This document shows positions 1-17,383 of a stretch of 34,191 bases of DNA, piece by piece. The position numbers and the translations under genes are program-made. How positions within the stretch are numbered: the stretch's first letter is position 1; the number at the start of each line of letters is the position of its first letter. Source of the DNA: Nitrospirota bacterium (GTDB lineage: Bacteria > Nitrospirota > Thermodesulfovibrionia > Thermodesulfovibrionales > JdFR-85); the NCBI GenBank assembly GCA_015492645.1, contig WGER01000075.1:1-34191 (forward strand), in the 5' to 3' direction. The notes under the pieces were generated by a model that made no database searches, had not been told where the DNA came from, and saw only the letters and a program-made list of their open reading frames with translations.

Positions 1-390
1 GATTTATATAAGGAAAAACCCGAACCTATTGAGGTAGTGAGAGCCTATCTCCGGAAATTTCCTTCAACCATTCCTGATATGACAATAGACCGTGCTCACA
101 ATGAGAAATGGATCAAAGACGAGATGGAGCGTCGTTTGTGGCTCTGTGACAAGTGGTTTTACCAGTTACAACTAAAAAAGGTTGAATTAAGAAAAACCTT
201 GAGGGAAGTAGTGGATCATCTGAATGTATTCCTTGACTACAGGGAGAGGTATTATGGGGTGAAGGCAACAGATGAGAAGAATCTTCTCTGGGAATACCTG
301 CAGGCGAATGATGGGACATCGATTAAGAGGAAATTGAAAGAGTATAAAGATTGGTGGGCAGAGAATAAGGGGAAGGGAATTGGGTTATAG
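1..390 (+). CDS. 3' end of an unrecognised protein gene (5' end outside window)
   Basis: The frame is open from the first base, so the true start lies upstream; the GTG at 37 is an internal valine, not a supported start. At least 129 residues are visible. They are strongly charged, rich in Lys, Glu, Arg and Trp, and mostly predicted helical by eye (ERRLWLCDKWF, LRKTLREVVDHL, KRKLKEYKDWW). I see no signal peptide, membrane segment, cysteine cluster or recognisable catalytic motif. It ends with two consecutive stops (388-393) and is followed directly by the tandem-repeat patch. I do not recognise the family and assign no function. It is probably real because the frame is long, with coherent amphipathic composition, but it is incomplete. 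Confidence 0.55.
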   Translation, partial: DLYKEKPEPIEVVRAYLRKFPSTIPDMTIDRAHNEKWIKDEMERRLWLCDKWFYQLQLKKVELRKTLREVVDHLNVFLDYRERYYGVKATDEKNLLWEYLQANDGTSIKRKLKEYKDWWAENKGKGIGL

Positions 391-637: not shown

Positions 638-1003
638 ATGGAAGTGTTGGAAAAGAAAAGGTTTTTTACAGGTTATTTGACTGTATCAGTGTTATTTTTG
701 ATGTTTATTGGAGGAAGTCTTAAGGCTGAAACAGTAAAGAATTTCAGGATTCTCAAGACTGACCCTATAGCACAGGTCGCAGTTATAAGAAGTGCTGAAA
801 ACAGGATAGAGGTGATAAAGGTCGGTGATAATCTGGAATATAAGGGGTCTAATTTTAAACTATCAAACATTTTTGAGGATCGTATTGTGCTTGATGGGAT
901 AGATATTGAGGAACGAATCATTATTAGGCCTACCAAGGAGGGGCAGGAAGTAAAAAGGATAAAAAGGGCTATTAAAAGGAAGCCTGTCTATGATATAGAA
1001 TAA
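638..1003 (+). CDS. Small membrane-anchored protein with GspC/PilP-like homology-region fold
   Basis: This is a 121-residue protein. ATG 638 is preferred over the ATG at 593 because AAGGAGG at 626-632 sits five bases upstream and the protein then starts MEVLEKKRFF. Residues about 9-28 form one hydrophobic segment (signal anchor or signal peptide), followed by a small beta-rich domain. The pattern IAQVAVIRSAENRIEVIKVGD, then a short linker and LSNIFEDRIVLDG, resembles the periplasmic homology region of GspC and PilP, which passes signals between inner-membrane and outer-membrane parts of type II secretion and type IV pilus machines. The tail is basic (KRIKRAIKRK). The gene ends 22 bases before the giant surface-protein gene and is probably cotranscribed with it, so a role in its export or display is plausible but inferred. 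Confidence 0.65.
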   Translation: MEVLEKKRFFTGYLTVSVLFLMFIGGSLKAETVKNFRILKTDPIAQVAVIRSAENRIEVIKVGDNLEYKGSNFKLSNIFEDRIVLDGIDIEERIIIRPTKEGQEVKRIKRAIKRKPVYDIE

Positions 1004-1025
1004 GTCTTAGACTGCCGGAGGGAGT

Positions 1026-4000
1026 ATGTTGCTGCGATGTATGAAGAAAGGGGTATTTTTTATTTGGTGTCTTTTCTTTCTTTCAACAATTTTGAATCTT
1101 TCAATCGTTGAGGCAAGTGAGTTCAAAGTTAATACTATTGATGACTACGGCAACATCACTGTCATGGAGGTGGAGGGTAACTACGATGCAACACTTCCTG
1201 ATGGTACCATAAATGAGGGACCACGACAGACAATAGCAAAAGAGTTCTTCAGACTCCATAAGGATGAATATGATTTCCTGGTGATCTTTACAAACTTTAA
1301 TTTTCAGATGCCAGAAGAAGAGACAAAGGCATTTTATCATCCTATAAAGAACGATGTGAGGGGGATAGGCATAGATGAATTCGATTATTCGGCGTTATAT
1401 GGAAGTAATGGTAGACTCCAGGGCATTATTGATATGGGAAACATCAATGGACTGGGACTTACTCCATTTGAACCTGGATTTGAAGAGACCCTTTCAACTC
1501 TATCTCATGAGATGCTTCATCGGTGGGGTGCGTATGTTAGATTTAGAGACGGAAATGGCAATGTAAGCAACGCCCTCTTGGGAAGGGGTGGTGACCACTG
1601 GAGTTTCCTCCTTGATACAGACGGTTCTGTTCTCTATGGGAATGACTGGCAGGACAACGGGGATGGGACCTTTACATCTGTGGGCACAGGTAAATATTAC
1701 AGTCCCCTTGACCTTTATCTGATGGGCTTTATAGACAGGACGAGGGTGCCTCCAATGCTTCTGATTGATAATCCATCAATAGAGCCTGCAAGGCTTCCTG
1801 AAAAGGGTGTTACCATCAAAGGAGAACCACAGTATGTGACCATAGATGATATTATTGCAGTAGAAGGAGAAAGAATACCAGATGTATATAGTTCGCAAAA
1901 ATCCTTCAAGATGGCCTTTATTCTTCTGACGCTACCTGGTACCTTCAGGATAGAAGGCGTATTCAGGCTGGAAGACCTGAGAAATGAATGGATAACGAGA
2001 TTTTCAGTACTTACAGACGGGATGGGCATAGTACAGGTTACATCTACACTGAAAGAGGAACTGCCTGAAAACCCCGGTGTGATTCCCCCTGTACTAAAGG
2101 CAAGGAGATTGCCTCCTGATATTGAAGATGGTATTAGATGGCTGATGAGGCATCAGGACTTTGACGGTAGTTGGGTTGCGATTGAACAGACTACAGAGAG
2201 AGATACTGCAGAGGCTGTGCTTGCTCTGAGCAACTTTGAGATGGCCTTCGAGCATTACCTTAAAGGGTTGCAATGGCTTGAGAAGACAGGCTCTCGGAAT
2301 ATGGACTATCTGGTCAGAAAGGTTATGGCCCTCACAGAGGCAGACAGAGATGTGACACCTCTGATTGATGAGATACTTTCACGACAGAACAGCGATGGAG
2401 GCTGGGGTAGTGGTGCCACTTATATGAGTAATCCCGTTGACACATCCTTTGCTCTTATGGCACTGGCTGTCTCCGGGTATTCTGGAGATCCTTCTGTATT
2501 AATAAAGGCGATCGAGTACCTTAAAGACAGACAGAATGAGGACGGCGGTTGGGGGAGCGACCACTCAAGCACTGTGCAGGCCACCACAAATGTCCTTATG
2601 GCATTCAACAGGTACAGGGATTCCTACCCGCTCGAAGAATACATCCAGAGGGGGACACAGTGGCTTATGGCTCATCAGAATCCTGATGGAGGTTTTGGCA
2701 ATAGCCCGAGTACAGTTTACGATACGGCACTTTCAGTTTTAGCACTCAGAGAACTTAATGTATCCACTGAGATTACAAACAGGTCTCTTAGTTATCTTCT
2801 TGACAACCAGACAGAAAGTGGTAGTTGGTATGAGAGTCCATACCAGACTGCACTCGCTGTGAGGGCCGTATGGAAGGCAAACATTGACCCTGACCTTTCC
2901 ATTAAGGCAGAGGATATAAGTTTTATCCCTTCCAGTGTTACCTCCCTTCCCTCCGATGTTGTGATTACTGCCAGGGTCTGGAACAATGGAAGAACAGGTG
3001 TTTCCCAAGCAAAGGTGGCTCTTTACAGAGGGGCCATCTCTGAGACAACAAAACTGGCAGAGCAGACACTGGCCTTTCCCGGACAGTCGGCTACAAGTGT
3101 TACATTCCCAATAACAGTAAAGGACCGCAACTCAGATTCATATATCATCGTGGTGGACCCTGACAATAACGTGAAGGAATCAAGTGAGACAAATAATCAA
3201 GCCAGCAGGTATATTTATCTCGAACCTACCTATGATTTCGTTGTTACACCACAGGATATATCACTGTCTTCAGAGAAAGTAAAGATTTATGACAACCTCA
3301 CAATCACTGCTGATATAACAAACAGGGGAACCTCGGATGCCTATAATCTGCAGGTGAGGATTTTCATTGATCTGCCTGAGGACCCCTATGAGATAGCGAC
3401 ATTAAACCTGGATGTTCCTGCAGGGGAGACGGTCACTGCAGAATACAAGTGGGATGCAACTGTTGAAGGAGTGTCTCTTCCCCTCACAGTAGAGGTAGAT
3501 CCTATTGGTTTCTTTTCTGAACTTTCAGAGGACAACAACAGGGCAACAGTGCCTCTCACAGTGGAAGGAGCAACTGAGCCCAATCTTATGGTTTCTTACA
3601 AAGAGATGGTCTTCACCCCTGAGCCTGCTAAGAAACTCGGAGACCTAACCATATCAGTGCCGGTGAAGAATAACGGCTTTTCTGATGCCTCTGGTGTGGT
3701 GGTGGAGTTTTATCTCGGCATCCCGGGAGTAGATGGAGCCCTGATTGGAAGGCAGACAATAGAGAAGATAGCCCCTGGTGAGAACAGAATTGTCTCGGTC
3801 CTCTGGCAGAAGATTCCGGTTTCAGGAGAGAAGACAGTCTATGTGACTGTAGACCCTGACAATCTGATTTCTGAGATCAAAGAAGATGACAATGAGGCAT
3901 TCAGGAAAATAACGATCCTGGATCTTCCTGACCTTGCGGTCTCCACAAACTCTATCACCTTTGAACCATCTGCCCCGAAGGAAGGAGACAGGGTTTCCAT

Positions 4001-7000
4001 CAATGTGATAGTAAAAAACATGGGAGGTCGGGATGTCCAGGATGTTACAGTTGATGTATATGGGAATAACAAGAAGGTCGGCACCGAAGTTATTCCTCTG
4101 ATTGGTGCAGATGCAGATGCCTCTGTCTCCTTTGTATACGATACCACAGGTATGGAAGGTGCACACGAGATTACTGTTAAGGTTGACCCTCTCAATCTCA
4201 TAGTTGAGAAGAGTGAAGACAACAATCAGGCATCAAGGGTGCTGGGTGTACAGGATGCGGATCTATGGGTCTCGGAACCCTATATCTCACCAAATGGTGA
4301 CGGAATAAAGGACAGCACAGATTTCTTTTTCAGGCTCAGGACACCTCAGACAGTAGAGGTCGTGGTGATTGATGGAAATGGTAGCACTGTGAGAGTCTTT
4401 TCAGGACCTGAACTGACAGATACCACTGGCACAACAATAACCTGGGATGGCATTGACAGTGAAGGCAGGGTTGTAGCAGATGGTCAGTACCGGATAGAGG
4501 TGGTGGACAGGGATGATAATGTTCTCGGTGGATTGTCAGTTGTGGTAGACAACAATCGTTTACCCTTTAAAGATGCTATCGGTACTGATTATCTCTGGCA
4601 GAAGAACATGACCTGTATGCTTCCTCAGATAAATCCAGAGCAATGGAAGTGGTTGCCTGATGAAAGCGGGATTGTATTCTGGATAGACTATGAAGATTCT
4701 GATACACCTGAGTATCCAGCCGGTCTCTACCGAATGGCTCCAGATGGTGAGGATATAAAGAGATTGATACCTGATGACTGGAATACCTCTGACAATCCAG
4801 AATTCATCTATTATAACTTCAGAGGGTATCCTTCTCCAGACAGTTCTAAAGTGGCCTTTCTCTTCTGGAAGGTAAATAGAAAGACCCAAGATCTCTCCTT
4901 TGAACTCTGGACAGTGGATGTGAATGGTGAACGACTGAACTATATAGATTCTATTTCGCCAGAGGCATGGTATCATGGTTTTTATAATATCCTATGGTCT
5001 CCTGATGGCAATTATCTTGGGTATATCAAGGCCTCTGCAGTGGATGACTATGTCCTATATATTGTTAATATTAACACCCTTGAGAGGATTGCTGTGGATT
5101 CACAGGTGTGGTATACCTATGAAGGTGAGATGGCCTGGTCACCTGACAGCACAGAGATAGCCTATCAGGCAGGTGAATGTGACCAGAATTATAATTGCTA
5201 TTCTGAGATAAGGGTAGCAGATATTCAGGGGAATAAGAGGGCGTTAAGAGAGATAAATGGGCTTCTATACTGGTTTGCCCCTGACAGGATTGTACTATGG
5301 GGTTACGGTGATAGAGATGAGGAGTTATGGCTCATAGATACAGAAGGGGATGCAGATAAAAGGATTGCAGAATCCACAGAGAGATATATTTCGATATCAC
5401 CTGATCATAGATTCTTTGCCTTTGTAGCGAAATCTCAGGGCATCCTCTCACTTTATCTCTCTGATATCTATGGAAACATCAAACAGATTGAGAGATTGAC
5501 TGCCTCTGATTACCGATGTCTACCTTATTTTTCAAGAGTTATCTGGGATCGTGAGAGCAAAAGGATCGCTTTTATGAAAACCGTGGCAGATAATGATGCC
5601 ATCTGTTCTGAGCCGTATGGTCCCTTCATCGAGTTATTTGAACTGGATACAAATGGTTCCCGCACCATTGCCATCTCTTCTGTTGATGGAACTGATGTAA
5701 GATTGAATGGCTGGTTATCAGATGGTGTTACGATTATTCTTACGGACCCCTATCAGGGGATATTCGCGATTGATACAAACCATGGGACTGAAGTGCCCAT
5801 ACTCTCTGGATATTATCGAGATGTTGACATCTCTCCCCTTGAAAGATATGTTACCTTTTACAGGAAGGCTGATAGCAGCAGTATCTGCTATAATAAAGGA
5901 TCTAACGATATATGGTCAATCAGTTCACTTCTCAATCTGACGGTTGAAATCAGGGTTAAGTCCGAGACATCTCATCTGATACTAAAAGGCACGGCTACTG
6001 ACCTCTATTTTGAAGGATACAAACTGGAGTATGCAGATGTAAAAGAACCTGACAGATGGGTTCTTATCAAACCACCTTCTGATCTGCCTGTTGTTAACGA
6101 TGTTATCACAGTATGGGTGCCTCCTCATAAAGGGAGATTTTATGTGAGGCTTACAGCATGGGACAGGGCAGGCAACGTTTTGCAGAGGGTTAGGCAGATA
6201 TCCTGGGGTAAACCTACAGGCATAATAGGTCTGTATCTTACAGAGACTCTATTCTCACCAAATGGTGACGGAGTAAAGGACAGTGTGGAACTACACTACA
6301 AGGTGCTTGATCCAGTGCATCTCGAGTTCTACATCTATGATGAGAGAGGAACATTGATAAGGACTTTTTACAGGGATTACACAGAAACTGTTAATGATTT
6401 TATTGTCTGGGACGGAAGGGACGATGCAGGTAATCTGGTCTCTGACGGGTTATATAAAATAAGAGTTTTTAATTACGAGTTTTTTGTTGAGGTGGACAAC
6501 ACCCTTCCTGATATAAATATAAGTTTCAGCAATAAAAATGCCTATCCATTGGGCTGGTGGAAATATATTAAGGGATATTCCCAGCCCCTATGGGCTCATG
6601 TTGTAGATAAAAACCTTAAAGAATGGCGTATTGAGTTAGGCTTTGGGGATAATCCAGAAAGATGGTATAGGCTGATGGGTGGAAGTAGTCTCGTTTCGGT
6701 ATTTGATCCTGCTGGTACACCTTTAGACCCTCCAAAAGATATTCTTATGGCGAGTTTTGGCCCTGAGTCTTCTTATCTGTACGATTTTCATATTGTTGAA
6801 AGAATGATCGGATCAACCAAGGTGCCCATTGTGAAGGTACGCCGTTTTGGAATTGGAATGGATCTGGACTGGCTAAATAATGCAAGGTTAAGGCTGTCTG
6901 CATCTGATAGCGGGGGAAACAGGATTACAATGATGACCGGATTTATACCTGAAAGGATGTTCATCTATAAGGTGAAAAACGATCGTGACAAATTGATAGA

Positions 7001-10000
7001 GATCCTGAAGGGTGGACAGATTATCGGGCCCCCCGGAGTATATAGGTTTTATTTACAGGAGACAATAAGAGAAAAACTTGATAGTATCACGGTACAGTAC
7101 ATGAGATACTGGTTTGTTGATGAAAAGAGAGATTATGTTACCGACTGGGTGTGGAATGATGGAGAGAGCATATCAGGGGTTGATGATGGCAAGATTGAAT
7201 TCTTATGGGATAGTTCAGACCTTGAATCAGGCATGAGATATTATGTAGTGCGTTTCAAAGCAGTAGACGAAGCCGGTCAAGAGTATTACAGTAATGAGGT
7301 GCGGATGGGGAATGCATTGGATTTGTATTCCCCATCATGTGCCCAAATGAACAGGGTTCCATCCTTTCGGATATATAACCTTATCAAGGACCTCCTATAT
7401 CTGAAGTTGCAGATAAAGGCACACTACTGGGGAGATGACCCAGAGTTTGCTGAATGGACTGACTTCAAGGTCTGGGATATAAGTAAAGGTGATGAGATAC
7501 CCGAAGGATTCTTTGAAGTCGAGGTTCCTGTGCTGAAGGAGGGTGTCTTATATAATATCCGCATAGTAGGGAAAGACGAAGAAGGGATTGTGTATTCTAG
7601 GGAAACATCTTACCCCAATATCTGTGTTGATATAGAGATTGAGCCATCCACTGAGGAGATGCCCTGTAACAGTCTTAAGACCTCTATAGATTTCAATGTA
7701 AAAATAACGGTCTCAAATCCAGTTCTTATAGAGCCTGATACAGTCTGGGTGACATTTGGTGAGCAGAGAAAGGAGATAAATAATCTGGATGTAAGAGATT
7801 TCGGTTCACTGGAAATTTCCTTTGATTCTTCCTTAATGAGTGAGGGCAACCATTTAGTAAACGCTGGTTTTATTTACAGAGACTTAGTGAATGGGATAAC
7901 AAAAGAAGCAACGATTAGACTTCCGTCTTATATCACAGTTGACCATACTCCTCCAGAGGCTGATATCCTCTCTCCCCCTGAGGGGTCAGAGGTGTGTCCT
8001 GTTGAAATTAATACAGAAGGGAAGAGATGGTCAGGCATACCAGTTGAGGGGGTAGCAACTGATAATTTAGGCGGGATATATTTTTTGCAAGTAAAAAAAG
8101 AAGACGGGCAATGGGCTACAGTCTCGACGTTTAATTCAAAAGGTGAGAGTGTACCCTTAAGAGACGGGACAGATAAGAGAGGTCTGCTTGGTATCTGGGA
8201 TGTATCAGGTTTAAAGGATAGAAATATCTCGCTGAGACTCAAGGTGATAGATAGGATGGGTAATGTGAGTTGCGATGAGACCCATTTCCTGATAGATAAG
8301 GTGATAGAGATTAATAGCATAAAACTGAATAATACCCTATTTTCACCAAATGGTGACCAGATAATGGATGATGTAACCGTTTATTACAACACGGATGAAG
8401 CAGCAACTGTTGATATAAAGGTGTATCCAGTCCAGATACTACCGAATGGTGATTATTACCTCAACCCTGTTCCGATAAGGACAGTGGCGTCAGGTCTTAA
8501 ACATCCCGGCGGTTATGGAGAGGTAATCTGGTACGGAATAGATGACTCTGGCGGAGTGGTGCCTGACGGTATTTACGGAATTGTGGTCAATGCAATTGAC
8601 TCCTGTAGTAACGCAGGGCAGAAGGGTGTCTATGTAGAGGTAGACAATACCGCACCATATGTTGAGATTACCAAGCCCATGGAGGGAGACCCGATAGGCA
8701 ATATTGTGGAGGTATGGGGTACAGTAAGAGATCCCAATTTGGCTGAGTATCACTTAGAGGCTATCAATAAAGAGACCGGAAAAAGGATCTCCTTTTCTTC
8801 AGGTACTCGCTCAATTGACAATGAGGTTGTTGGAAGATGGAGTACAGCAGGGCTTTCCGGGTCCTGGGAATTGGTACTTACAGCCACTGATAAGGTGGGC
8901 AATAAGAGTTCGAAATCCATCACAGTGAACCTTGCAGACAGGGTAAGCCTTATTAAGGACCTTAAGATCAGTCCTGAGGTCTTTTCCCCGAATGGGGATG
9001 GAAGACTGGATAAAACAGTTATCCTCTACGAACTCACTGATGGCTGCATTGTAGACCTTGAGATTATCAACGACTCAGGTGCTGTAGTAAAGAGGTATCG
9101 AACCAGTGTTGACTCTGCAGGTGTTTATAAGTATACCTGGGATGGTACGGACATGCTGGGTGATGTCGTACAGGAGGGTGAGTATAAGATCAAACTTATT
9201 GCCAGCCTTTTATCAAATACAACAGTGAGGGAGGAGGAGGCAATAACAGGGGTGGTGGATTATACCCCGCCCAGGGTTGATATAACCACACCGTTGAATG
9301 ATTCGTACTTAGATGCAACAGAGATCCCGGTTGTGGGTACTATCTCAGATGAAAACCTCCTCTATTACTCAATTATCAATGTCGGTCCCTCAGGAGAGAT
9401 CCTGATAGATGAAGGGAGTCAGTCAAGAGAGGCCCACACATTCGGTATCCTGAATGAATTGCCCGAGGGACAATACAGACTTAAGGTTGTAGCCCGTGAT
9501 AGTGCTGAAAATACAGAAGAAAAGACGATCGTATTTGTTCTTGACAGGACACCTCCTGAGGTCCTGTTGCTTTCTCCAGTGGATGGAGAGATATATGGAG
9601 GACGAGAAGGAACGGTTGAGATCAAAGGCTCCATAACAGAGAGAAACCTTGAGACTTACATTATCAGATATACCTCTGTGAAAACCCCCTTACAATGGAA
9701 GACCCTGGCAAGATCAGAGGACCCACCCCAGGGCGATATCTTATATCAATGGCGAACAGATAGAGATGTTGTGGAAGATGGTATCTATGTATTGTCCCTC
9801 TATGCAAAGGACCTTGCCGGTCACGAGGCAGAGACAAGGGTGAAGATAACGATTGACAACACCGTCCCTCTGGTTTATATAAAGGAACCTGAAGAGGGCC
9901 AGTACATCAAGGGACCTGTAGAGGTGCTGGGTACCGTGGATGATCTGAGCCTTGATAGGTATGAGGTGGAGTTTGCCGAAGGTGAATGTAGCGGTGCTTA

Positions 10001-12242
10001 CAGATGGGCAGTGCTGGGTGTATCTAATGCGGTAGTGCAGGATGGGGTGCTGGCTAAATGGCTTGCCCTTCCGGAAGACGGTGATTATTGTGTGCGGCTA
10101 ACTGCTGTGGATAAACTTGAGCAAAAAACAGCGACAAGCGTAAATGTAAGGGTTGATACCCATCCCCCTCAGCCTCCTGATCTTTCAGGTGAGACAGAGA
10201 ACAGGACAGACGTAAGGCTGAGATGGACCGCTAATACAGAGCCTGACCTTGCAGGGTACAATCTCTACAGGAATGGCATGAGACTGAATGGTGAACTCAT
10301 TACAGAGATTCAGTATATTGATCGGGGTCTGGCTGAAGGAAGTTATACATATACTGTAAAAGCGGTAGATCGGGCAGGTTGGGAGAGTGGACCCTCCAAT
10401 GAGGTGAAAATAAAGGTTGATCTGACGGGACCCTCTGTGAGGATAGGTCTTCCAGAAGATGGCTCAAGGATAGGTGGCCTCGTTGATATCAAGGGCACAG
10501 CATTTAGCAGGGATGATTTCAAAGAATACAGGCTCTATATGGGAAGAGGCAGTATGCCCGACTCGTGGAGTTTGCTTAGAAGGTCCCCACTGCCGATCTC
10601 ATATGGGGTTCTGGGTAAAATGGATACCACAGGGCTTAAGGATGGAGAGGTATACACCATAAAACTCGAGGCCGAGGATATTGTTGGTAATATCAATACA
10701 ACTCAGGTAACCACCACAGTTGACAATACCCCACCTTCGGCTCCTGTACTACTAACTGTGGTTGCTGACGGAGAGGATGTTACAGTGACCTGGAGTTCAA
10801 ATACAGAGCCAGACCTTGCCGGCTATCTCCTTTACCGTAATGATGAACTGGCCAATAGCGAAAGCGTAGTGATTGGTAACCTCTTTCCGTACGTTTTATC
10901 CGAGACAGTCTACTTCGATGAGGGGCTCCCAGACGGTAGATTCCGATACTATGTGGTTGCAATGGATGAGGCAGGGAATATGAGTGAGGAGTCAAATGCC
11001 ATTGAGGTTGCCATAGACACGCATCCACCCCATGCAGTAATTGTGGAGCCTGAAGATGGAGAGAGGTTTGAGAAGACTATTGTCGTAAGGGCTGATACTG
11101 CTGATCTTGATATAAAACAGGTACGATTTGAATACAGGAGCACAGCAGAGACCACATGGACACCCCTGGCGTCTGCTGACACACCACCCTATATCGTCAA
11201 CCTCAATCCTGAAGAACATGGTTTGACTTACGGAGAGTATAACCTGAGGGCAGTGGCTACGGATGAGGGTGGAAACACAGACCCAACCCCAGGGTTTATC
11301 ACAGTTGTTTATACCGATCTTACCCCACCTGAGGCCCCAGTTGACCTGAAGGCACGAACAGATGGAAGGGATGTCATCCTTAGATGGACGGCTGGTACAG
11401 AGTCAGATCTTCAGGGATATAACATTTACAGGATACATAAAAATGAAAAGGTGAAACTCAATACAGTACCATTAGATGATACCGTTTTTTATGACAGGGG
11501 ACTTGCAGATGGCTTTTATACCTATGAAGTGACGGCTGTTGATATCTATACCAATGAAAGCAGGCCATCCAACCGGGCAGAGGCAAGGGTGTATGCACCT
11601 GTTATAAACCAGCCTTATACGCCTGCAGCAGATAAGGTGGTTCAGATTGAAGGAGAAAAGGCAGAGCCTGATGCAACAGTTGAGGTGTTTGTGGATGCGA
11701 TTTCTCAGGGCACTACAACATCAGACGAAAATGGCCACTTTACATTTGATGTGATCCTTAATCCTGGTGAAAACAGGATAACTGCAAGGTCAGATAAAGA
11801 CGGAAACAGAAGCAGGCTCTCAGAGCAGGTTGTGATTGTCTATAATGAGCCTCCTGCTGCTCCTGCGGGTCTTGTGCCTGATACTAAAGACTACACTGTT
11901 ACACTTACTTGGGATCCAAATACAGAGCCTGACCTGGTTGGATACAATGTCTACAGAGGCGATGAGAGGTTAAACAGACTGATTCTTATGACTTCTGGGA
12001 CCGTCGTGGCATCCAGTTACTATTTCACGCATGAACCTGGACATGCCTTTGATGGGGACCCTTCAACATACTGGATGACCTATTCCTATTCAGGTCAGAT
12101 AGGACCTCAATGGTTGGAGATTGATCTACCAACATCTGAACTTATCAATACAATAGAGGTTCAATGGGAGAGTTTTCAATATTCTGGTAATGTATATGAG
12201 ATACAGGTATGGACAGGTTATACATGGATCATCAGACCATAA
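1026..12242 (+). CDS. Giant secreted multidomain protein, N-terminal part (metallopeptidase-like, toroid, CARDB, propeller, Ig, FN3); broken by frameshift
   Basis: The frame covers 3,738 residues. GGAGG at 1017-1021 favours ATG 1026. Residues 1-30 look like a signal peptide. H161-E-M-L-H165 is an HExxH zinc-metallopeptidase motif, followed by GGDHW near 191 and SPLDLYLMG. Residues about 365-622 carry five QW-type repeats (QNSDGGWG, QNEDGGWG, QNPDGGFG), an alpha/alpha toroid like terpenoid cyclases. Four CARDB domains follow (about 623-1076), then an SPNGDG FlgD-like domain, a TolB-like beta-propeller (about 1182-1637), more FlgD-like domains (starting near 1735, 2432 and 2646), several TPP-linked Ig domains, and FN3 domains from 3044 with the signature NTEPDLAGY. 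A discoidin (F5/8 C) domain starts at about 3656 and is cut by the stop at 12240-12242; its continuation is in the next frame. It is likely exported and cell-surface or extracellular. No substrate can be inferred. Confidence 0.9.
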   Translation: MLLRCMKKGVFFIWCLFFLSTILNLSIVEASEFKVNTIDDYGNITVMEVEGNYDATLPDGTINEGPRQTIAKEFFRLHKDEYDFLVIFTNFNFQMPEEETKAFYHPIKNDVRGIGIDEFDYSALYGSNGRLQGIIDMGNINGLGLTPFEPGFEETLSTLSHEMLHRWGAYVRFRDGNGNVSNALLGRGGDHWSFLLDTDGSVLYGNDWQDNGDGTFTSVGTGKYYSPLDLYLMGFIDRTRVPPMLLIDNPSIEPARLPEKGVTIKGEPQYVTIDDIIAVEGERIPDVYSSQKSFKMAFILLTLPGTFRIEGVFRLEDLRNEWITRFSVLTDGMGIVQVTSTLKEELPENPGVIPPVLKARRLPPDIEDGIRWLMRHQDFDGSWVAIEQTTERDTAEAVLALSNFEMAFEHYLKGLQWLEKTGSRNMDYLVRKVMALTEADRDVTPLIDEILSRQNSDGGWGSGATYMSNPVDTSFALMALAVSGYSGDPSVLIKAIEYLKDRQNEDGGWGSDHSSTVQATTNVLMAFNRYRDSYPLEEYIQRGTQWLMAHQNPDGGFGNSPSTVYDTALSVLALRELNVSTEITNRSLSYLLDNQTESGSWYESPYQTALAVRAVWKANIDPDLSIKAEDISFIPSSVTSLPSDVVITARVWNNGRTGVSQAKVALYRGAISETTKLAEQTLAFPGQSATSVTFPITVKDRNSDSYIIVVDPDNNVKESSETNNQASRYIYLEPTYDFVVTPQDISLSSEKVKIYDNLTITADITNRGTSDAYNLQVRIFIDLPEDPYEIATLNLDVPAGETVTAEYKWDATVEGVSLPLTVEVDPIGFFSELSEDNNRATVPLTVEGATEPNLMVSYKEMVFTPEPAKKLGDLTISVPVKNNGFSDASGVVVEFYLGIPGVDGALIGRQTIEKIAPGENRIVSVLWQKIPVSGEKTVYVTVDPDNLISEIKEDDNEAFRKITILDLPDLAVSTNSITFEPSAPKEGDRVSINVIVKNMGGRDVQDVTVDVYGNNKKVGTEVIPLIGADADASVSFVYDTTGMEGAHEITVKVDPLNLIVEKSEDNNQASRVLGVQDADLWVSEPYISPNGDGIKDSTDFFFRLRTPQTVEVVVIDGNGSTVRVFSGPELTDTTGTTITWDGIDSEGRVVADGQYRIEVVDRDDNVLGGLSVVVDNNRLPFKDAIGTDYLWQKNMTCMLPQINPEQWKWLPDESGIVFWIDYEDSDTPEYPAGLYRMAPDGEDIKRLIPDDWNTSDNPEFIYYNFRGYPSPDSSKVAFLFWKVNRKTQDLSFELWTVDVNGERLNYIDSISPEAWYHGFYNILWSPDGNYLGYIKASAVDDYVLYIVNINTLERIAVDSQVWYTYEGEMAWSPDSTEIAYQAGECDQNYNCYSEIRVADIQGNKRALREINGLLYWFAPDRIVLWGYGDRDEELWLIDTEGDADKRIAESTERYISISPDHRFFAFVAKSQGILSLYLSDIYGNIKQIERLTASDYRCLPYFSRVIWDRESKRIAFMKTVADNDAICSEPYGPFIELFELDTNGSRTIAISSVDGTDVRLNGWLSDGVTIILTDPYQGIFAIDTNHGTEVPILSGYYRDVDISPLERYVTFYRKADSSSICYNKGSNDIWSISSLLNLTVEIRVKSETSHLILKGTATDLYFEGYKLEYADVKEPDRWVLIKPPSDLPVVNDVITVWVPPHKGRFYVRLTAWDRAGNVLQRVRQISWGKPTGIIGLYLTETLFSPNGDGVKDSVELHYKVLDPVHLEFYIYDERGTLIRTFYRDYTETVNDFIVWDGRDDAGNLVSDGLYKIRVFNYEFFVEVDNTLPDINISFSNKNAYPLGWWKYIKGYSQPLWAHVVDKNLKEWRIELGFGDNPERWYRLMGGSSLVSVFDPAGTPLDPPKDILMASFGPESSYLYDFHIVERMIGSTKVPIVKVRRFGIGMDLDWLNNARLRLSASDSGGNRITMMTGFIPERMFIYKVKNDRDKLIEILKGGQIIGPPGVYRFYLQETIREKLDSITVQYMRYWFVDEKRDYVTDWVWNDGESISGVDDGKIEFLWDSSDLESGMRYYVVRFKAVDEAGQEYYSNEVRMGNALDLYSPSCAQMNRVPSFRIYNLIKDLLYLKLQIKAHYWGDDPEFAEWTDFKVWDISKGDEIPEGFFEVEVPVLKEGVLYNIRIVGKDEEGIVYSRETSYPNICVDIEIEPSTEEMPCNSLKTSIDFNVKITVSNPVLIEPDTVWVTFGEQRKEINNLDVRDFGSLEISFDSSLMSEGNHLVNAGFIYRDLVNGITKEATIRLPSYITVDHTPPEADILSPPEGSEVCPVEINTEGKRWSGIPVEGVATDNLGGIYFLQVKKEDGQWATVSTFNSKGESVPLRDGTDKRGLLGIWDVSGLKDRNISLRLKVIDRMGNVSCDETHFLIDKVIEINSIKLNNTLFSPNGDQIMDDVTVYYNTDEAATVDIKVYPVQILPNGDYYLNPVPIRTVASGLKHPGGYGEVIWYGIDDSGGVVPDGIYGIVVNAIDSCSNAGQKGVYVEVDNTAPYVEITKPMEGDPIGNIVEVWGTVRDPNLAEYHLEAINKETGKRISFSSGTRSIDNEVVGRWSTAGLSGSWELVLTATDKVGNKSSKSITVNLADRVSLIKDLKISPEVFSPNGDGRLDKTVILYELTDGCIVDLEIINDSGAVVKRYRTSVDSAGVYKYTWDGTDMLGDVVQEGEYKIKLIASLLSNTTVREEEAITGVVDYTPPRVDITTPLNDSYLDATEIPVVGTISDENLLYYSIINVGPSGEILIDEGSQSREAHTFGILNELPEGQYRLKVVARDSAENTEEKTIVFVLDRTPPEVLLLSPVDGEIYGGREGTVEIKGSITERNLETYIIRYTSVKTPLQWKTLARSEDPPQGDILYQWRTDRDVVEDGIYVLSLYAKDLAGHEAETRVKITIDNTVPLVYIKEPEEGQYIKGPVEVLGTVDDLSLDRYEVEFAEGECSGAYRWAVLGVSNAVVQDGVLAKWLALPEDGDYCVRLTAVDKLEQKTATSVNVRVDTHPPQPPDLSGETENRTDVRLRWTANTEPDLAGYNLYRNGMRLNGELITEIQYIDRGLAEGSYTYTVKAVDRAGWESGPSNEVKIKVDLTGPSVRIGLPEDGSRIGGLVDIKGTAFSRDDFKEYRLYMGRGSMPDSWSLLRRSPLPISYGVLGKMDTTGLKDGEVYTIKLEAEDIVGNINTTQVTTTVDNTPPSAPVLLTVVADGEDVTVTWSSNTEPDLAGYLLYRNDELANSESVVIGNLFPYVLSETVYFDEGLPDGRFRYYVVAMDEAGNMSEESNAIEVAIDTHPPHAVIVEPEDGERFEKTIVVRADTADLDIKQVRFEYRSTAETTWTPLASADTPPYIVNLNPEEHGLTYGEYNLRAVATDEGGNTDPTPGFITVVYTDLTPPEAPVDLKARTDGRDVILRWTAGTESDLQGYNIYRIHKNEKVKLNTVPLDDTVFYDRGLADGFYTYEVTAVDIYTNESRPSNRAEARVYAPVINQPYTPAADKVVQIEGEKAEPDATVEVFVDAISQGTTTSDENGHFTFDVILNPGENRITARSDKDGNRSRLSEQVVIVYNEPPAAPAGLVPDTKDYTVTLTWDPNTEPDLVGYNVYRGDERLNRLILMTSGTVVASSYYFTHEPGHAFDGDPSTYWMTYSYSGQIGPQWLEIDLPTSELINTIEVQWESFQYSGNVYEIQVWTGYTWIIRP
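4281..9015 (+). repeat. Four dispersed SPNGD (FlgD-like Ig) coding repeats
   Basis: Copies of the SPNGD motif open FlgD-like Ig modules near 4285, 6253, 8341 and 8983. The first three share the DNA core TCACCAAATGGTGAC. The fourth is diverged (TCCCCGAATGGGGATGG). Each module then runs through a W-D/Y-G-x-D segment and a (V/Q)xDGxY segment. Identity at DNA level among the first three copies points to duplication within this gene rather than convergence alone. Confidence 0.75.
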
Positions 12243-13068
12243 TAGAGAACAACAGAGAGGAAACCAACAGGATTGAATTCTCTCCTTCATACAGGACAGA
12301 CAGGATCAGGCTTTACATAAAACGGGTTAATGACCCCGAAAGCAGACAGTTGAGGCTGTCGGATGTAAAGATCTGGGTGGACAGGCCTGTTAAAGACAGT
12401 GTTTATACCGATGGAGGCCTCCTTGATGGTAAATACAACTATAGAGTTACCGCAGTTGACTATTATGGATTTGAGAGTTCCCCATCAGATGAGGTACAGG
12501 TAGAAGTAGGTGATACAGAACCACCTGTGCCTCCTCAGGGCCTTGTTGCCACCGCTTCAGGACCTGATGTGCTTCTGACCTGGATGCCCAACACAGAACC
12601 TGACCTGGCAGGATACAACATCTACAGGCTCTCATCTGAGGGATGGTCAAGAATAAATGAGGTGCTGATTACATCACCTGAATACACAGACAGAGGGCTC
12701 TCCAATGGTATCTATACATACAGGGTGACGGCCATTGATGCAGTGGGTAACGAAAGCATGCCCTCAAATGAGGCATCGGCGACTGTGTACATCGGACAGC
12801 CCGGACCACCCCTGAATCTGACAATTACAGCACCTGCTGAAGGGGCCTCCCTTGTGGCGATATGGCAGTATAGCGGTGGTGCATCAGGATACAATCTTTA
12901 CAGAGGCACCGTCTCGGGGGGGCCATATAGTAGAGTCAACAGTATGCCAATCAGAGAGACGACCTATACTGACCGAGGCCTCACAAACGGTACAACTTAT
13001 TACTATGTGGTTACTGCAGTTGATGCCTATGGCAATGAGAGTGCCTACTCCAACGAGGCGATGGGTAT
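10155..13068 (+). repeat. Fibronectin type III repeat series with NTEPDLAGY signature
   Basis: Six FN3 domains share a central signature. Near-identical DNA encoding NTEPDL(A/V)GY occurs at about 10233, 10800, 11919 and 12590. A diverged copy (GTESDLQGY) lies at about 11394 and a weak one (GGASGY) at about 12870. Each domain ends with a Y-T/V-x-A-x-D segment before the next PP-rich linker. The fourth domain is interrupted by the discoidin insertion. The series crosses the frameshift, which supports one original reading frame. Confidence 0.8.
12200..12242 (+). other. Frameshift zone joining the two halves of the giant gene
   Basis: The upstream frame stays open to the TAA at 12240-12242. The downstream frame is open from just after a TGA at 12197-12199. 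The change of frame must therefore lie in these 43 bases. A discoidin domain starts in the first frame (GHAFDGDPSTYW) and finishes in the second (RIRLYIKRV...VKIWVD). The second frame is reached by stepping back one base, so the sequence looks one base short. There is no X-XXY-YYZ slippery heptamer and no homopolymer longer than two bases. A point deletion or sequencing error is more likely than programmed shifting. Confidence 0.85.
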
Positions 13069-16000
13069 ACCAGAAGACACCGTGGCTCCCGCACCTCCCC
13101 TTCTTTACCATCCCATCTATGCCAATGAGAGTGTCAAGTTGAATAGAAAGAGGACCGTTGTTGCCGGAAGTGCCGAGCCCGGTGCCACAATCGAAGTTTA
13201 CAGGAATAACCTGATAGAAAGGGTGGTTACTTCAAGAATTGATGATGGTATCTCTAAGTATCTCCTTGATGCCGAAACAGGTTACATTACACTCTCGAGG
13301 GATGGAAGACATGCAGTGTACGAAAGAGGCGGATCTATATGGTTTATGAGCCTTGACACCGGGTTGTCAGAGATGGTGGTGCCAGAGGGGTACGCGCCAG
13401 TTTTATCGCCTGAGGGTGACAAGATAGCCTATGGTTATTTTGAAGATGGTACACTCCGGATCAGGGTCTACGATCTCACCACACATCAGGATACAACCCT
13501 TACGGATGACTTATATTCAGTTGAGTTAGACCCGGTCTGGTCAGCCGATGGGACAAAGATAGCCTTTGTTAGCAATCGTGAGGACAACAGGTATAATGTA
13601 TGGGTGGCAGACCTGAAGAGAGACTCTCTCACCAGGATCACCAATGTCGACAGTGCAGCCATGCCGAGATTCTCTCCTGACATGAGGTGGATGACCTTTT
13701 TTGAAGGTCAGACACTTTATATTGTAGACCTTTCAACTGAGGAGGTCAGAGAGATTGACTCCCTGACAGATGGATATACCGGGGGCTGGTCTCCAGACAG
13801 TAAAAGGGTTGCCTTTATCTCATACCGCGAGGGAAGGCCAGGGATATACATAATGGATGTCATAACAGGACACCAGTACCTCCTTGTATCCTCTCCAGGT
13901 ATATATGATCTACTGTGGTTGCCGGATGGTAGAGGTGTGGGATATCTGACAGATGAGGGAGGTCTGAGTTCACTATGGATCAAACCAACAGATTCAGAGG
14001 AAGAGAGGGTGCTAATAGAAGGGCTTCTACCCGGTGCCTCTATGCTCTCATCCGGTCCTGGCACAATCGCATTTAGAGAGGAGGACAGTCTCTTTATAGT
14101 TGAATTAAAGGGACACTTTATTATCAGAGACGTTGCTCTGGAAGAAGGGGAAAACACCTTCTATGCAACCGCAGTAGATGACTCCGATAATAGAAGTAAA
14201 CAGTCTGACAGGATTTTGGTAATACTGAATACCGAGAATATGCCAGATCTGGAGATTTCGGATAGTGACATCTACATATATCCTACCTCTCCTGTGGAAG
14301 GTGAAGAGGTGGTAATTAATTTGGTCATATGGAACAGGGGTGAGGCCGATGCTAATAATGTCGAAGTGGACCTTTATGTATGGGATTCCAGTGGTGAGAT
14401 GGATCTACTCAAAACAGAGAGTATAGAGAAGATCCCTGCCCACTCTGCAAGTCTTGTCACTGCAGAATGGAATAGCAGAGGTCACGAGGGTGTTAACAGG
14501 ATAATAGGGGTGGTTGATCCACTGGACGGTATTGATGAGGTGAGGGAATCAAATAACTATTCAATAAAGGAATTTAGAGTGGCTGACAGAGAGGGGCTCC
14601 TTCTCAGGATCTCAACTGATTCAGAACAGTACAGAAGCATGGAGGATGTGGTGATAGATATCACTCTGAGCAACAGTGGAAGAGAGGTGGATGGAATACT
14701 GAGGGTTACTGTAGAGGACGCAAATGGAGATGAGGTGGCCCGGGTCTGTGAGATTGAGATAACCATGCCCTATGCCTCAGAAGAGAGATATTCCTGTAAA
14801 TGGAATACGGACCTTCTGTATGCCGGGCAGTACCGGATTCATACTGTTGTATTAGCCGAGGGAGGCGTGATAGCCGAAGATACAGTGATGATGGTTATCC
14901 TGCCAGATATAGATGTGGACATCCTTCCATCAACAGACAGATCAACTTATCGTCCTAAAGAAGATGTGAAAATTAGTGTTGAGATATTGAACAATGGTCT
15001 GAATTATATCGTTCCAGAGATAATTCTCAAGTTGAAGATCTTAGACCCCATGGGCAGTACGGCCTTTGCAGAGGATCAGAGGGTTACGATGCTATTACCG
15101 ATGACCTCTGTAAAACTGAAAAGCCTCTGGAATACAGGGGTCTCTCTGCCCGGAGATTACACACTTGTTGTTGAGGGTTACCTTGATGGGCAGTTTGTCT
15201 CTCATAGGGAGATGAGATTCTGGATAGAGCCCGAAGTTATGTTTAATGGCAGGATAGTCTCGATGCCCTCCACGCTCGGATACGGGAATAACTTCAGGAT
15301 TGATTATCAGATTAAAAACACCGGAAATGTTTCTGCAAAAGGTGTGACTGTAGAAGTCCAGATAATGGATCCTGACTCACACAATAAGATGGATTCAAGA
15401 CAGGAAGTGTTTGACCTATCAATCAGCGGGACTCATAGGGGGACATTTTACTTTTCTACAGATGGGCTCAGTCTGAAAAGATACAGGGTGGTATTACAGG
15501 TGGAGTTCAGGGGAGTGACCTATCAGATTGATGCAGGCCATCTCACAATAATAGACAATAGACCCCCTCTGGTGGAGGTCCTGACACCAGAGGAAGGTGG
15601 CCACTATAACTCTGAGTTTATAATATCCGTATTGGTTGAGGATGATGGCTCAGGTGTAGAGAATGTCGAATACAGGATGGATGAGGGGGACTGGCAGAAG
15701 ATGGCCCTATCGGACCCCGCCTCTCACAGGTATATGGCAACCTTTAAGCCTACCAATGTGGATGAGGGTGATCATGTCATATACCTGAGGGCAACTGATA
15801 GGGAAGGAAACCAGAGTATACCAGTATCCGTACATATCACAATTGATTTTACACCTCCTGAGCCGCCCCGTATATTATATCCTGAAGATGGTGCCTACCT
15901 GTCATCGGAGGAGGTAGAGATTAAGGGTGTTGCAGAGCCTGGTGCACTTGTAGAGATGGGGTTTATCGAGGTCTTCCAGAGCACAGCAGATCCTGAGACC

Positions 16001-17383
16001 GGTGAGTTTTCTTTCACAGTAAACATTCTTCCGGGAAAGAATGTTCTGCTTTTTACCGCAAAAGACAGGGCAGGAAACATTAGCAGAACAATCAGATACA
16101 CCCTCTACCTCGGCAGACTCGATGTAAAAAAGAGTATATCTTTAAAACCGAGGGTCCTTGTCTGGTTTCTTGGTGAAGATAGGAGAAAGGCCCCATGTAG
16201 ATTGAATAGAGATGGAGGTGGAAGATCTGATGACTGTACAGACCTGATTGAGTTTATAGAAGATTCAATCAGCGGTATGAGCGGGATATATAAGATGGTC
16301 ATTGATGAGGAAGACTTCATTGAGTCTTTCCGGTCAGCCATCTATAATACGTATATAATTGTTGATCTCCATGATTGTGGGACGAGAGGGGATCAACACA
16401 AGAGACAGCATCTTCGGCCAGAAATACAGAGAGAATTAAGGGAGTCCATCTTCAGGGGAGAAGGTGTGGTTGTGGTAAAAAACCATCCTTCTGAGTGGCC
16501 CGAGTTGAGAAAGGCCCTTGGTGTGAAAATCAGGGGAAGGGCGGTAACCAGAGGTGATAAAGTAGTCTTTAGTAGTTCTGAGATATCAGAAGAGACTGTA
16601 GCCGAATTTTACGGCACTTACATACAGGTTGAGAATTACTCAGGTGAGGTGGTAGGATCGTTTAAAGATGGTGATAATCCATCTGTTGTGATCAATCGAT
16701 TTGGAAATGGCTCAACGGTGCTGTTTACATTCAACCCTGTGGATATTGTTAATAGGGAGGTCTCTACTCAGATCTTCCAGAATGCCCTATATTACGTGAG
16801 TCCTAAGGAGCAGGAGATTTATCCATATTCTGTTGTGTCAGTATATATATCTCTCATGGCCAGGTATAGGGACTTTGAGGTGAAGGTGTCAGAAGAGGTG
16901 CCGGACGAGGTTGTGATTGTTCACTCCTCAGAGGGTTTTAAAGTAGATGGACACAGTATAAAATGGGAGGGAGTTGTAAAACAAGATACGATTAAAGAAC
17001 TCTCTTATATGGTCAGAATTCCGGACAGGAGCGGTTCATATCTATTCACGACAGAGGTGTTTTATGTTACTGACAGTTCAGTGTCTGAGCAAGAGAGGAC
17101 AATTATAGTTTCTGTAGATAAGACCTTAGGAGAGATAATGGATTATATAATTTATGCTATTTCAGAGGTCGGATATAGTAATTCCAAAGTTATAGTGAAT
17201 ATACTCAAAAGGATCCAACAACGACCTACAGAGAGCAGAAGAGATATAGAAAAGAGCATCAGAGATATATTAAGGGTTGTGGAATTGATAGAAGATATAG
17301 ACATTGACGGGAAAGAGGATTTGAGACTGACACTGGACAGGATTCTTGTGATGTATGGGGTTATGTGGTCTGAGTCAGGATGA
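12209..17383 (+). CDS. Giant secreted multidomain protein, C-terminal part after the frameshift
   Basis: The frame covers 1,724 residues with no signal peptide and a poor ribosome site at ATG 12209, so it is read here as the continuation of the upstream gene. Order: end of the discoidin domain (to about 58), end of the FN3 domain that contains it (59-102), two more FN3 domains (about 104-290), an Ig domain begun at about 295 and interrupted by a TolB-like beta-propeller (about 343-632; motifs LSPEGDKIAY, WSADGTKIAF, WSPDSKRVAF), then resumed at 634-673. A CARDB domain (about 680-790), several Ig-like domains, and a Rossmann-like region resembling class I amidotransferase/ThuA domains (about 1313-1510, with YIIVDLHDC and FRGEGVVVV) follow. 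A beta domain and a helical tail end the protein. No C-terminal anchor or sorting signal is visible. The stop overlaps the next gene in an ATGA. Confidence 0.85.
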   Translation: MDRLYMDHQTIIENNREETNRIEFSPSYRTDRIRLYIKRVNDPESRQLRLSDVKIWVDRPVKDSVYTDGGLLDGKYNYRVTAVDYYGFESSPSDEVQVEVGDTEPPVPPQGLVATASGPDVLLTWMPNTEPDLAGYNIYRLSSEGWSRINEVLITSPEYTDRGLSNGIYTYRVTAIDAVGNESMPSNEASATVYIGQPGPPLNLTITAPAEGASLVAIWQYSGGASGYNLYRGTVSGGPYSRVNSMPIRETTYTDRGLTNGTTYYYVVTAVDAYGNESAYSNEAMGIPEDTVAPAPPLLYHPIYANESVKLNRKRTVVAGSAEPGATIEVYRNNLIERVVTSRIDDGISKYLLDAETGYITLSRDGRHAVYERGGSIWFMSLDTGLSEMVVPEGYAPVLSPEGDKIAYGYFEDGTLRIRVYDLTTHQDTTLTDDLYSVELDPVWSADGTKIAFVSNREDNRYNVWVADLKRDSLTRITNVDSAAMPRFSPDMRWMTFFEGQTLYIVDLSTEEVREIDSLTDGYTGGWSPDSKRVAFISYREGRPGIYIMDVITGHQYLLVSSPGIYDLLWLPDGRGVGYLTDEGGLSSLWIKPTDSEEERVLIEGLLPGASMLSSGPGTIAFREEDSLFIVELKGHFIIRDVALEEGENTFYATAVDDSDNRSKQSDRILVILNTENMPDLEISDSDIYIYPTSPVEGEEVVINLVIWNRGEADANNVEVDLYVWDSSGEMDLLKTESIEKIPAHSASLVTAEWNSRGHEGVNRIIGVVDPLDGIDEVRESNNYSIKEFRVADREGLLLRISTDSEQYRSMEDVVIDITLSNSGREVDGILRVTVEDANGDEVARVCEIEITMPYASEERYSCKWNTDLLYAGQYRIHTVVLAEGGVIAEDTVMMVILPDIDVDILPSTDRSTYRPKEDVKISVEILNNGLNYIVPEIILKLKILDPMGSTAFAEDQRVTMLLPMTSVKLKSLWNTGVSLPGDYTLVVEGYLDGQFVSHREMRFWIEPEVMFNGRIVSMPSTLGYGNNFRIDYQIKNTGNVSAKGVTVEVQIMDPDSHNKMDSRQEVFDLSISGTHRGTFYFSTDGLSLKRYRVVLQVEFRGVTYQIDAGHLTIIDNRPPLVEVLTPEEGGHYNSEFIISVLVEDDGSGVENVEYRMDEGDWQKMALSDPASHRYMATFKPTNVDEGDHVIYLRATDREGNQSIPVSVHITIDFTPPEPPRILYPEDGAYLSSEEVEIKGVAEPGALVEMGFIEVFQSTADPETGEFSFTVNILPGKNVLLFTAKDRAGNISRTIRYTLYLGRLDVKKSISLKPRVLVWFLGEDRRKAPCRLNRDGGGRSDDCTDLIEFIEDSISGMSGIYKMVIDEEDFIESFRSAIYNTYIIVDLHDCGTRGDQHKRQHLRPEIQRELRESIFRGEGVVVVKNHPSEWPELRKALGVKIRGRAVTRGDKVVFSSSEISEETVAEFYGTYIQVENYSGEVVGSFKDGDNPSVVINRFGNGSTVLFTFNPVDIVNREVSTQIFQNALYYVSPKEQEIYPYSVVSVYISLMARYRDFEVKVSEEVPDEVVIVHSSEGFKVDGHSIKWEGVVKQDTIKELSYMVRIPDRSGSYLFTTEVFYVTDSSVSEQERTIIVSVDKTLGEIMDYIIYAISEVGYSNSKVIVNILKRIQQRPTESRRDIEKSIRDILRVVELIEDIDIDGKEDLRLTLDRILVMYGVMWSESG

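Follow-up and report, generated by a model that had tools for sequence, protein, structure and literature searches.

A small GspC/PilP-like protein encoded beside a giant, predicted exported protein: a candidate cargo-linked secretion partner

The window analyzed here is one entire contig (G000:C75, 34191 bases) of a Nitrospirota bacterium. Near its left end, a gene for a protein of 121 residues directly precedes a giant gene that opens with a putative metallopeptidase domain marked by an HExxH motif. The small protein is modelled as a free-standing β-sandwich of the kind found in PilP and in the homology region (HR) of GspC. Its gene accompanies the giant in several phyla, and among loci of known arrangement it occurs exclusively where the HExxH domain is N-terminal. 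The reading that we prefer, at a probability of roughly 40%, is that the small protein would be a Sec-exported, cargo-linked periplasmic partner of the giant that presents it to a secretin. The argument turns on four features of the window:

638..1003, + strand: small gene, 121 amino acids (aa); predicted signal peptide and stand-alone GspC-HR/PilP-like β-sandwich with an extra conserved C-terminal strand
1004..1025, + strand: gap of 22 bases between the small gene and the ATG of the giant, with a ribosome-site-like stretch
1026..12242, + strand: giant, predicted exported protein, first reading frame, 3738 aa, recognized by its open reading frame (ORF) and Pfam domains
1116..2033, + strand: N-terminal HExxH putative metallopeptidase domain of the giant, recognized by invariant motif residues and an AlphaFold2 model

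These coordinates agree with the spacing of 22 bases given in the original prediction, which had been made from the DNA letters and which described the small protein as a GspC/PilP-like partner of the giant, either a dedicated tether or an adaptor to a secretion machine. A purine-rich, ribosome-site-like stretch precedes the start of the small gene and that of the giant alike. The ORF list places an earlier ATG of the small ORF at 593; homologues start near 638.

An AlphaFold2 model of the small protein, built with 23 window and locus sequences, has a mean predicted local distance difference test score (pLDDT) of 88.4, with block means of 92–98 across residues 41–110. The model consists of an N-terminal helix followed by strands from residues 37–42 to 102–109. 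An extra C-terminal strand lies at the edge of the HR core, and a family-specific conserved loop follows the first strand. Foldseek returned no match to this model at E ≤ 0.001 (best E 0.13). Among the Foldseek candidates aligned with VIA-align, secretion-machine domains lead with Z 5.1–7.7: 7muc_AF (Z 7.7, root-mean-square deviation (rmsd) 2.1, 61 residues aligned), the GspC HR 3oss_C, with GspD (Z 7.5, rmsd 2.4, 62/65 aligned), 3jc8_Pa from a type IVa pilus machine model (Z 7.3, rmsd 6.6, 75 aligned), four PilP entries, a chain of a PilQ complex, and LspC. The alignment with PilP 2y4y_C reaches Z 7.0 (rmsd 2.7, 65 aligned), and the rows of fatty-acid-binding proteins (FABP) and profilins stay at Z ≤ 5.0. 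As modelled, the small protein is a GspC-HR/PilP β-sandwich and belongs to this superfamily by fold. The homology-region-like β domain of the original prediction was thus recovered, and no different fold was found.

Profile comparison with GspC and PilP, which had been suggested as a check, points in the same direction. In hhalign, 23 members of the small-protein family match the 11 PilP sequences of the same genomes with 92% probability (E 5.5e-7) and the 11 GspC sequences with 45%, compared with 30% for GspC against PilP. Pfam T2SSC is touched by 17 of the 27 family members (best 4.4e-5) and Pfam PilP by nine (best 1.3e-4), mostly below threshold in both cases; four members weakly touch T2SSB. 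The protein of the window itself scores 13.4 bits against T2SSC, under the curated cut-off of 27, and has no match in a search with Pfam PilP at E up to 1. The top three entries of a PDB sequence search are PilP, PilP and GspC, all weak and below cut-offs. A scan of whole genomes with the small-protein profile also gave weak matches near secretins (e.g., G182:C50 and G187:C31), in frames whose position suggests GspC or PilP. At the profile level, the small protein is related to the HR/PilP superfamily, with PilP as its closest member. The small genes of loci L102, L107, L047, L046, and L174 contain extra sequence of variable length in one loop between two core strands.

The possibility that the small protein is the GspC or the PilP of its genome is excluded by separate genes elsewhere. 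GspC is encoded at G000:C81:2626-2988, with a secretin at C81:4800-5294, and PilP at G000:C38:3750-4064, on a contig that also encodes a secretin. PilP (PF04351) shares the β-sandwich core and gives the best profile match among the machine proteins of the same genomes. On the other hand, an [ND]PF motif precedes the core in 11/11 PilP sequences and is missing from the small protein, whose gene does not lie beside pilQ. The HR of GspC (T2SSC, PF11356) has the same fold, and the local match falls on the HR part. In contrast to the small protein with its 121 aa, GspC is 280–305 aa long and contains a membrane anchor, a linker, and a further C-terminal domain. The small protein lacks this combination of anchor and linker as well as the C-terminal domain, and its helix is not set apart from the domain by a long spacer like that of GspC. 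The [ND]PF motif also occurs in 11/11 GspC sequences of these genomes, whereas the dipeptide PF occurs in 2/27 members of the small-protein family, and the small gene lies outside any gsp cluster.

The N-terminus of the small protein had been described as a single-helix anchor. A hydrophobic helix is indeed modelled at residues 2–27. However, 19/27 members share one alignment column for an AxA-type signal-peptidase site, and in 25/27 such a site falls no more than three residues away from that column. Because of this site, a membrane anchor is less likely than a cleaved signal, and processing would most likely leave a soluble periplasmic protein. At L134 (5909-6851), the small gene occurs in two tandem copies, the first with a lipobox-like N-terminus by eye.

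How well the pair is conserved was examined at 53 loci, which were found by a profile of the giant's first domain and searched upstream with an iterated profile of the small protein. The small gene is present upstream on the same strand at 25 of them (L103 and L124 were scored positive on partial small genes). Judged from record titles, these loci come from Nitrospirota, Geobacteraceae, other delta-type lineages, a Lysobacterales bacterium, and the Olavius Gamma 3 symbiont, and conservation of this extent excludes a chance ORF. One of the carriers is the culturable Geotalea toluenoxydans (L108). With starts chosen by rule, the gap from stop to start is ≤100 bases in 15 of the 25 pairs. Intervening insertions part the small gene from the giant in L095 and L139. 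At L014 (1033-1500; G028), the start region of the giant is duplicated around a remnant that we take to be REP-type transposase-like, and this stretch separates the two genes. The remaining 28 loci comprise 11 in which the domain is internal to a long frame or terminates it, 10 with an N-terminal domain, four distant Myxococcota loci (26–28% identity) that encode short single-domain proteins, and three that are undecidable where the contig ends upstream (L092, L106, and L109). Conservation of the pair therefore holds across several phyla, but the expectation that homologues of the giant always carry the small gene does not, and a universal two-gene rule is excluded by the many loci that have the giant's domain alone. 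Among 176 genomes of the order, a set that overlaps with the 53 loci (e.g., L091 = G001, L101 = G039), the small gene was found in 10 at E below 1e-9. All of these are among the 21 genomes that bear the giant's domain (Fisher p 6e-11, kinship not corrected for). In one of the 10 carriers, G039, the small gene is broken by two stops and lies on another contig.

Presence of the small gene follows the position of the HExxH domain. It occurs at 25/39 decidable N-terminal loci and at 0/11 internal ones (p 2e-4, kinship not corrected for). None of the loci whose HExxH domain is internal to a long protein or closes it (L096, L099, L104, L105, L110, L115, L125, L126, L130, L132, and L138) has the small gene. 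Mapped on a tree of 54 domains, the internal-domain label requires two changes, both forced by strong branches. The internal arrangement arose at least twice, and the small gene is missing from both clades. In a whole-genome search that omitted six of the 53 loci (L091, L092, L109, L132, L141, and L143), 10 genomes with an internal domain, that of L132 not among them, showed no small gene at any other place. On the same tree, with the undecidable loci labelled negative, the small-gene-positive label needs 10 changes and therefore points to repeated gain or loss.

The first domain of the giant carries the HExxH motif and one later histidine, both invariant across all 36 aligned sequences, and its AlphaFold2 model is confident (pLDDT 93.7, predicted template modelling score 0.90). 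No Pfam or NCBIfam family is shared by the 36 members (best count 2/36), and the domain of the window has none above threshold. Comparison with the PDB gave a best Foldseek E of 2.2, a missing match that is not proof of a new fold. The best VIA-align row was a chain of aminopeptidase A (Z 5.2, rmsd 3.3, 112 aligned). By its motif, the domain is a putative metallopeptidase and a candidate new family of such enzymes.

How might these two proteins work together? The HR domains of GspC and GspB, and likewise PilP, are described as ligands of the secretin N0 domain (PMC3169554, PMC9239104), and chaperones of type II secretion systems (T2SS) encoded beside their effector are documented as well: CpaB serves the metallopeptidase CpaA from within about a hundred bases (PMC4713064). 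By analogy, the small protein would be exported by Sec, lose its signal peptide, and work in the periplasm. There, once Sec has exported the giant, as predicted from its signal peptide-like N-terminus, the small protein may engage the N-terminal protease-like domain and keep it competent, perhaps inactive. The giant would then be presented to a secretin, probably the type II GspD, and reach the surface. CpaB, as the chaperone of CpaA, would be the functional analogue. Of the possible functions, that of an adaptor to a secretion machine has the most support; it would involve contact with a secretin and with the giant.

Known proteins resemble such a partner in part. The HR of GspB/OutB shares the fold and binds the secretin N0 domain, but OutB is described as sitting in the inner membrane and attaching to peptidoglycan through its C-terminal region (PMC9239104), whereas the small protein is a short exported domain encoded beside a cargo gene. 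CpaB and the lipase foldases (Lif) have in common with the small gene that their genes adjoin one exported effector, as the pair does here at 25/53 loci; the small protein differs in its HR-like fold and in a signal that is probably cleaved. An N-terminal membrane anchor is a further mark of these chaperones; the small protein has a hydrophobic N-terminus, for which the AxA-type site in 25/27 members speaks in favour of cleavage.

Several observations weigh against an export partner of this kind. The top Foldseek rows for the small protein are mostly FABP, and the structural matches are modest, all with Z < 8. The 10 N-terminal-type giants without a small gene come from genomes in which GspD is present. 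GspD does not track the small gene, since it is found in 23/25 genomes with it and in 19/19 without, and the carriers G177 and G214 show no clear GspD. Because GspD is over the cut-off in 42/44 genomes examined, a type II route is possible and not singled out; presence of a type II system is unsupported as an explanation of small-gene carriage. Finally, the small gene of G189 lies away from the protease giant (L106, on another contig). Its only big neighbours are a transglutaminase/RHS-type giant and a protein of ~320 aa, which weakens a strict two-gene reading. Of the two-gene system originally proposed, the pairing is kept, and its restriction to these two genes is in part too narrow.

The alternative that survives best is a periplasmic chaperone or inhibitor that caps the HExxH domain until the giant leaves the cell, with no secretin contact and with the HR fold as a reused scaffold. 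Such a protein would explain the strict link with N-terminal placement, including the absence from both internal-domain clades, as well as an export partner does; the conserved loop and the extra strand at the core edge, both particular to this family, would suit it, and protease/chaperone neighbours are described (PMC4713064). We regard it as possible if somewhat unlikely, given that the closest relatives of the small protein are secretin-binding proteins, that G189 has the small gene without an adjoining protease giant, and that ten N-terminal giants manage without it. More doubtful is a direct docking mechanism, in which the free HR domain binds the giant at its N-terminal domain and places it on the N0 ring of the secretin, replacing GspC or PilP or acting beside them, and the type II (or pilus) machine takes a substrate of several thousand residues. 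If true, cargo recruitment would fall to an HR domain whose gene accompanies the cargo rather than the machine.

The small protein could also be an additional PilP/GspB-like component of a secretin or pilus machine, with a general accessory role for several exported giants of the same genomic island. In several genomes, the genes ahead of the small gene are one for a transglutaminase/Ig/hydrolase giant or an RHS-repeat protein and one for a secreted protein of ~320 aa, and the neighbours in G189 are of this type. All 10 carriers among the 176 genomes also bear the protease domain, however, and at several loci (e.g., L093, L121, and L127) no upstream transglutaminase or RHS gene was seen, which makes this role improbable. 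Passive linkage to an old neighbour without shared function would fit repeated gain or loss over the tree and the pairs separated by insertions in L095, L139, and G028; it is very unlikely, since adjacency is kept across phyla while other neighbours change and the small gene is almost never found in a genome without the giant. Least credible is a tether, with the small protein fixed in the inner membrane and keeping the giant there; the hydrophobic helix speaks for it, the AxA-type sites and the missing GspC-like spacer against it.

Substrate recognition by the T2SS is a long-standing open question. A substrate gene with its own copy of a secretin-docking fold would offer a direct handle on it, and absence of the small gene whenever the protease domain is not N-terminal constitutes a natural experiment. 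The analysis also defines a widespread small family and a putative metallopeptidase family uncovered by Pfam and NCBIfam. A literature search, with subscription journals mostly outside its reach, found no title describing this pair.

Two further features complete this part of the window:

12209..17383, + strand: the giant continued in a second frame, 1724 aa, with fn3, WD40-like, CARDB, and Big domains
1..390, + strand: upstream ORF without Pfam family

After the 300-residue HExxH domain, the first frame of the giant encodes a toroid resembling squalene-hopene cyclases and prenyltransferases, followed by CARDB, FlgD-Ig, Big, and fn3 domains and the first half of an F5/8 type C domain. Past 12242, the ORF at 12209-17383 adds further domains of these kinds. 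The F5/8 type C domain is split at 12209-12242, at the junction of the two frames. Because the giants of relatives are single open frames of 5822, 6448, and 6147 aa, the two frames in the window probably form a single gene of ~5.4 thousand codons that is interrupted by a frame break, either real or an assembly error. A programmed frameshift was considered, and no slippery heptamer was seen by eye at 12209-12242.

Upstream of the small gene, such transglutaminase-type giants and/or secreted proteins of ~300–320 aa are found at L097, L098, L112, L117, L135, L137, L010, L173, and L174. L137 contains three paralogues of ~320 aa and a giant fragment, a neighbourhood that resembles polymorphic toxin loci. 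In the window, the ORF at 1..390 resembles by eye the ORFs that precede the small gene in G001 (L009) and L139. Between this ORF and the small gene, positions 395-450 contain a short imperfect tandem repeat of ggtagaca variants.
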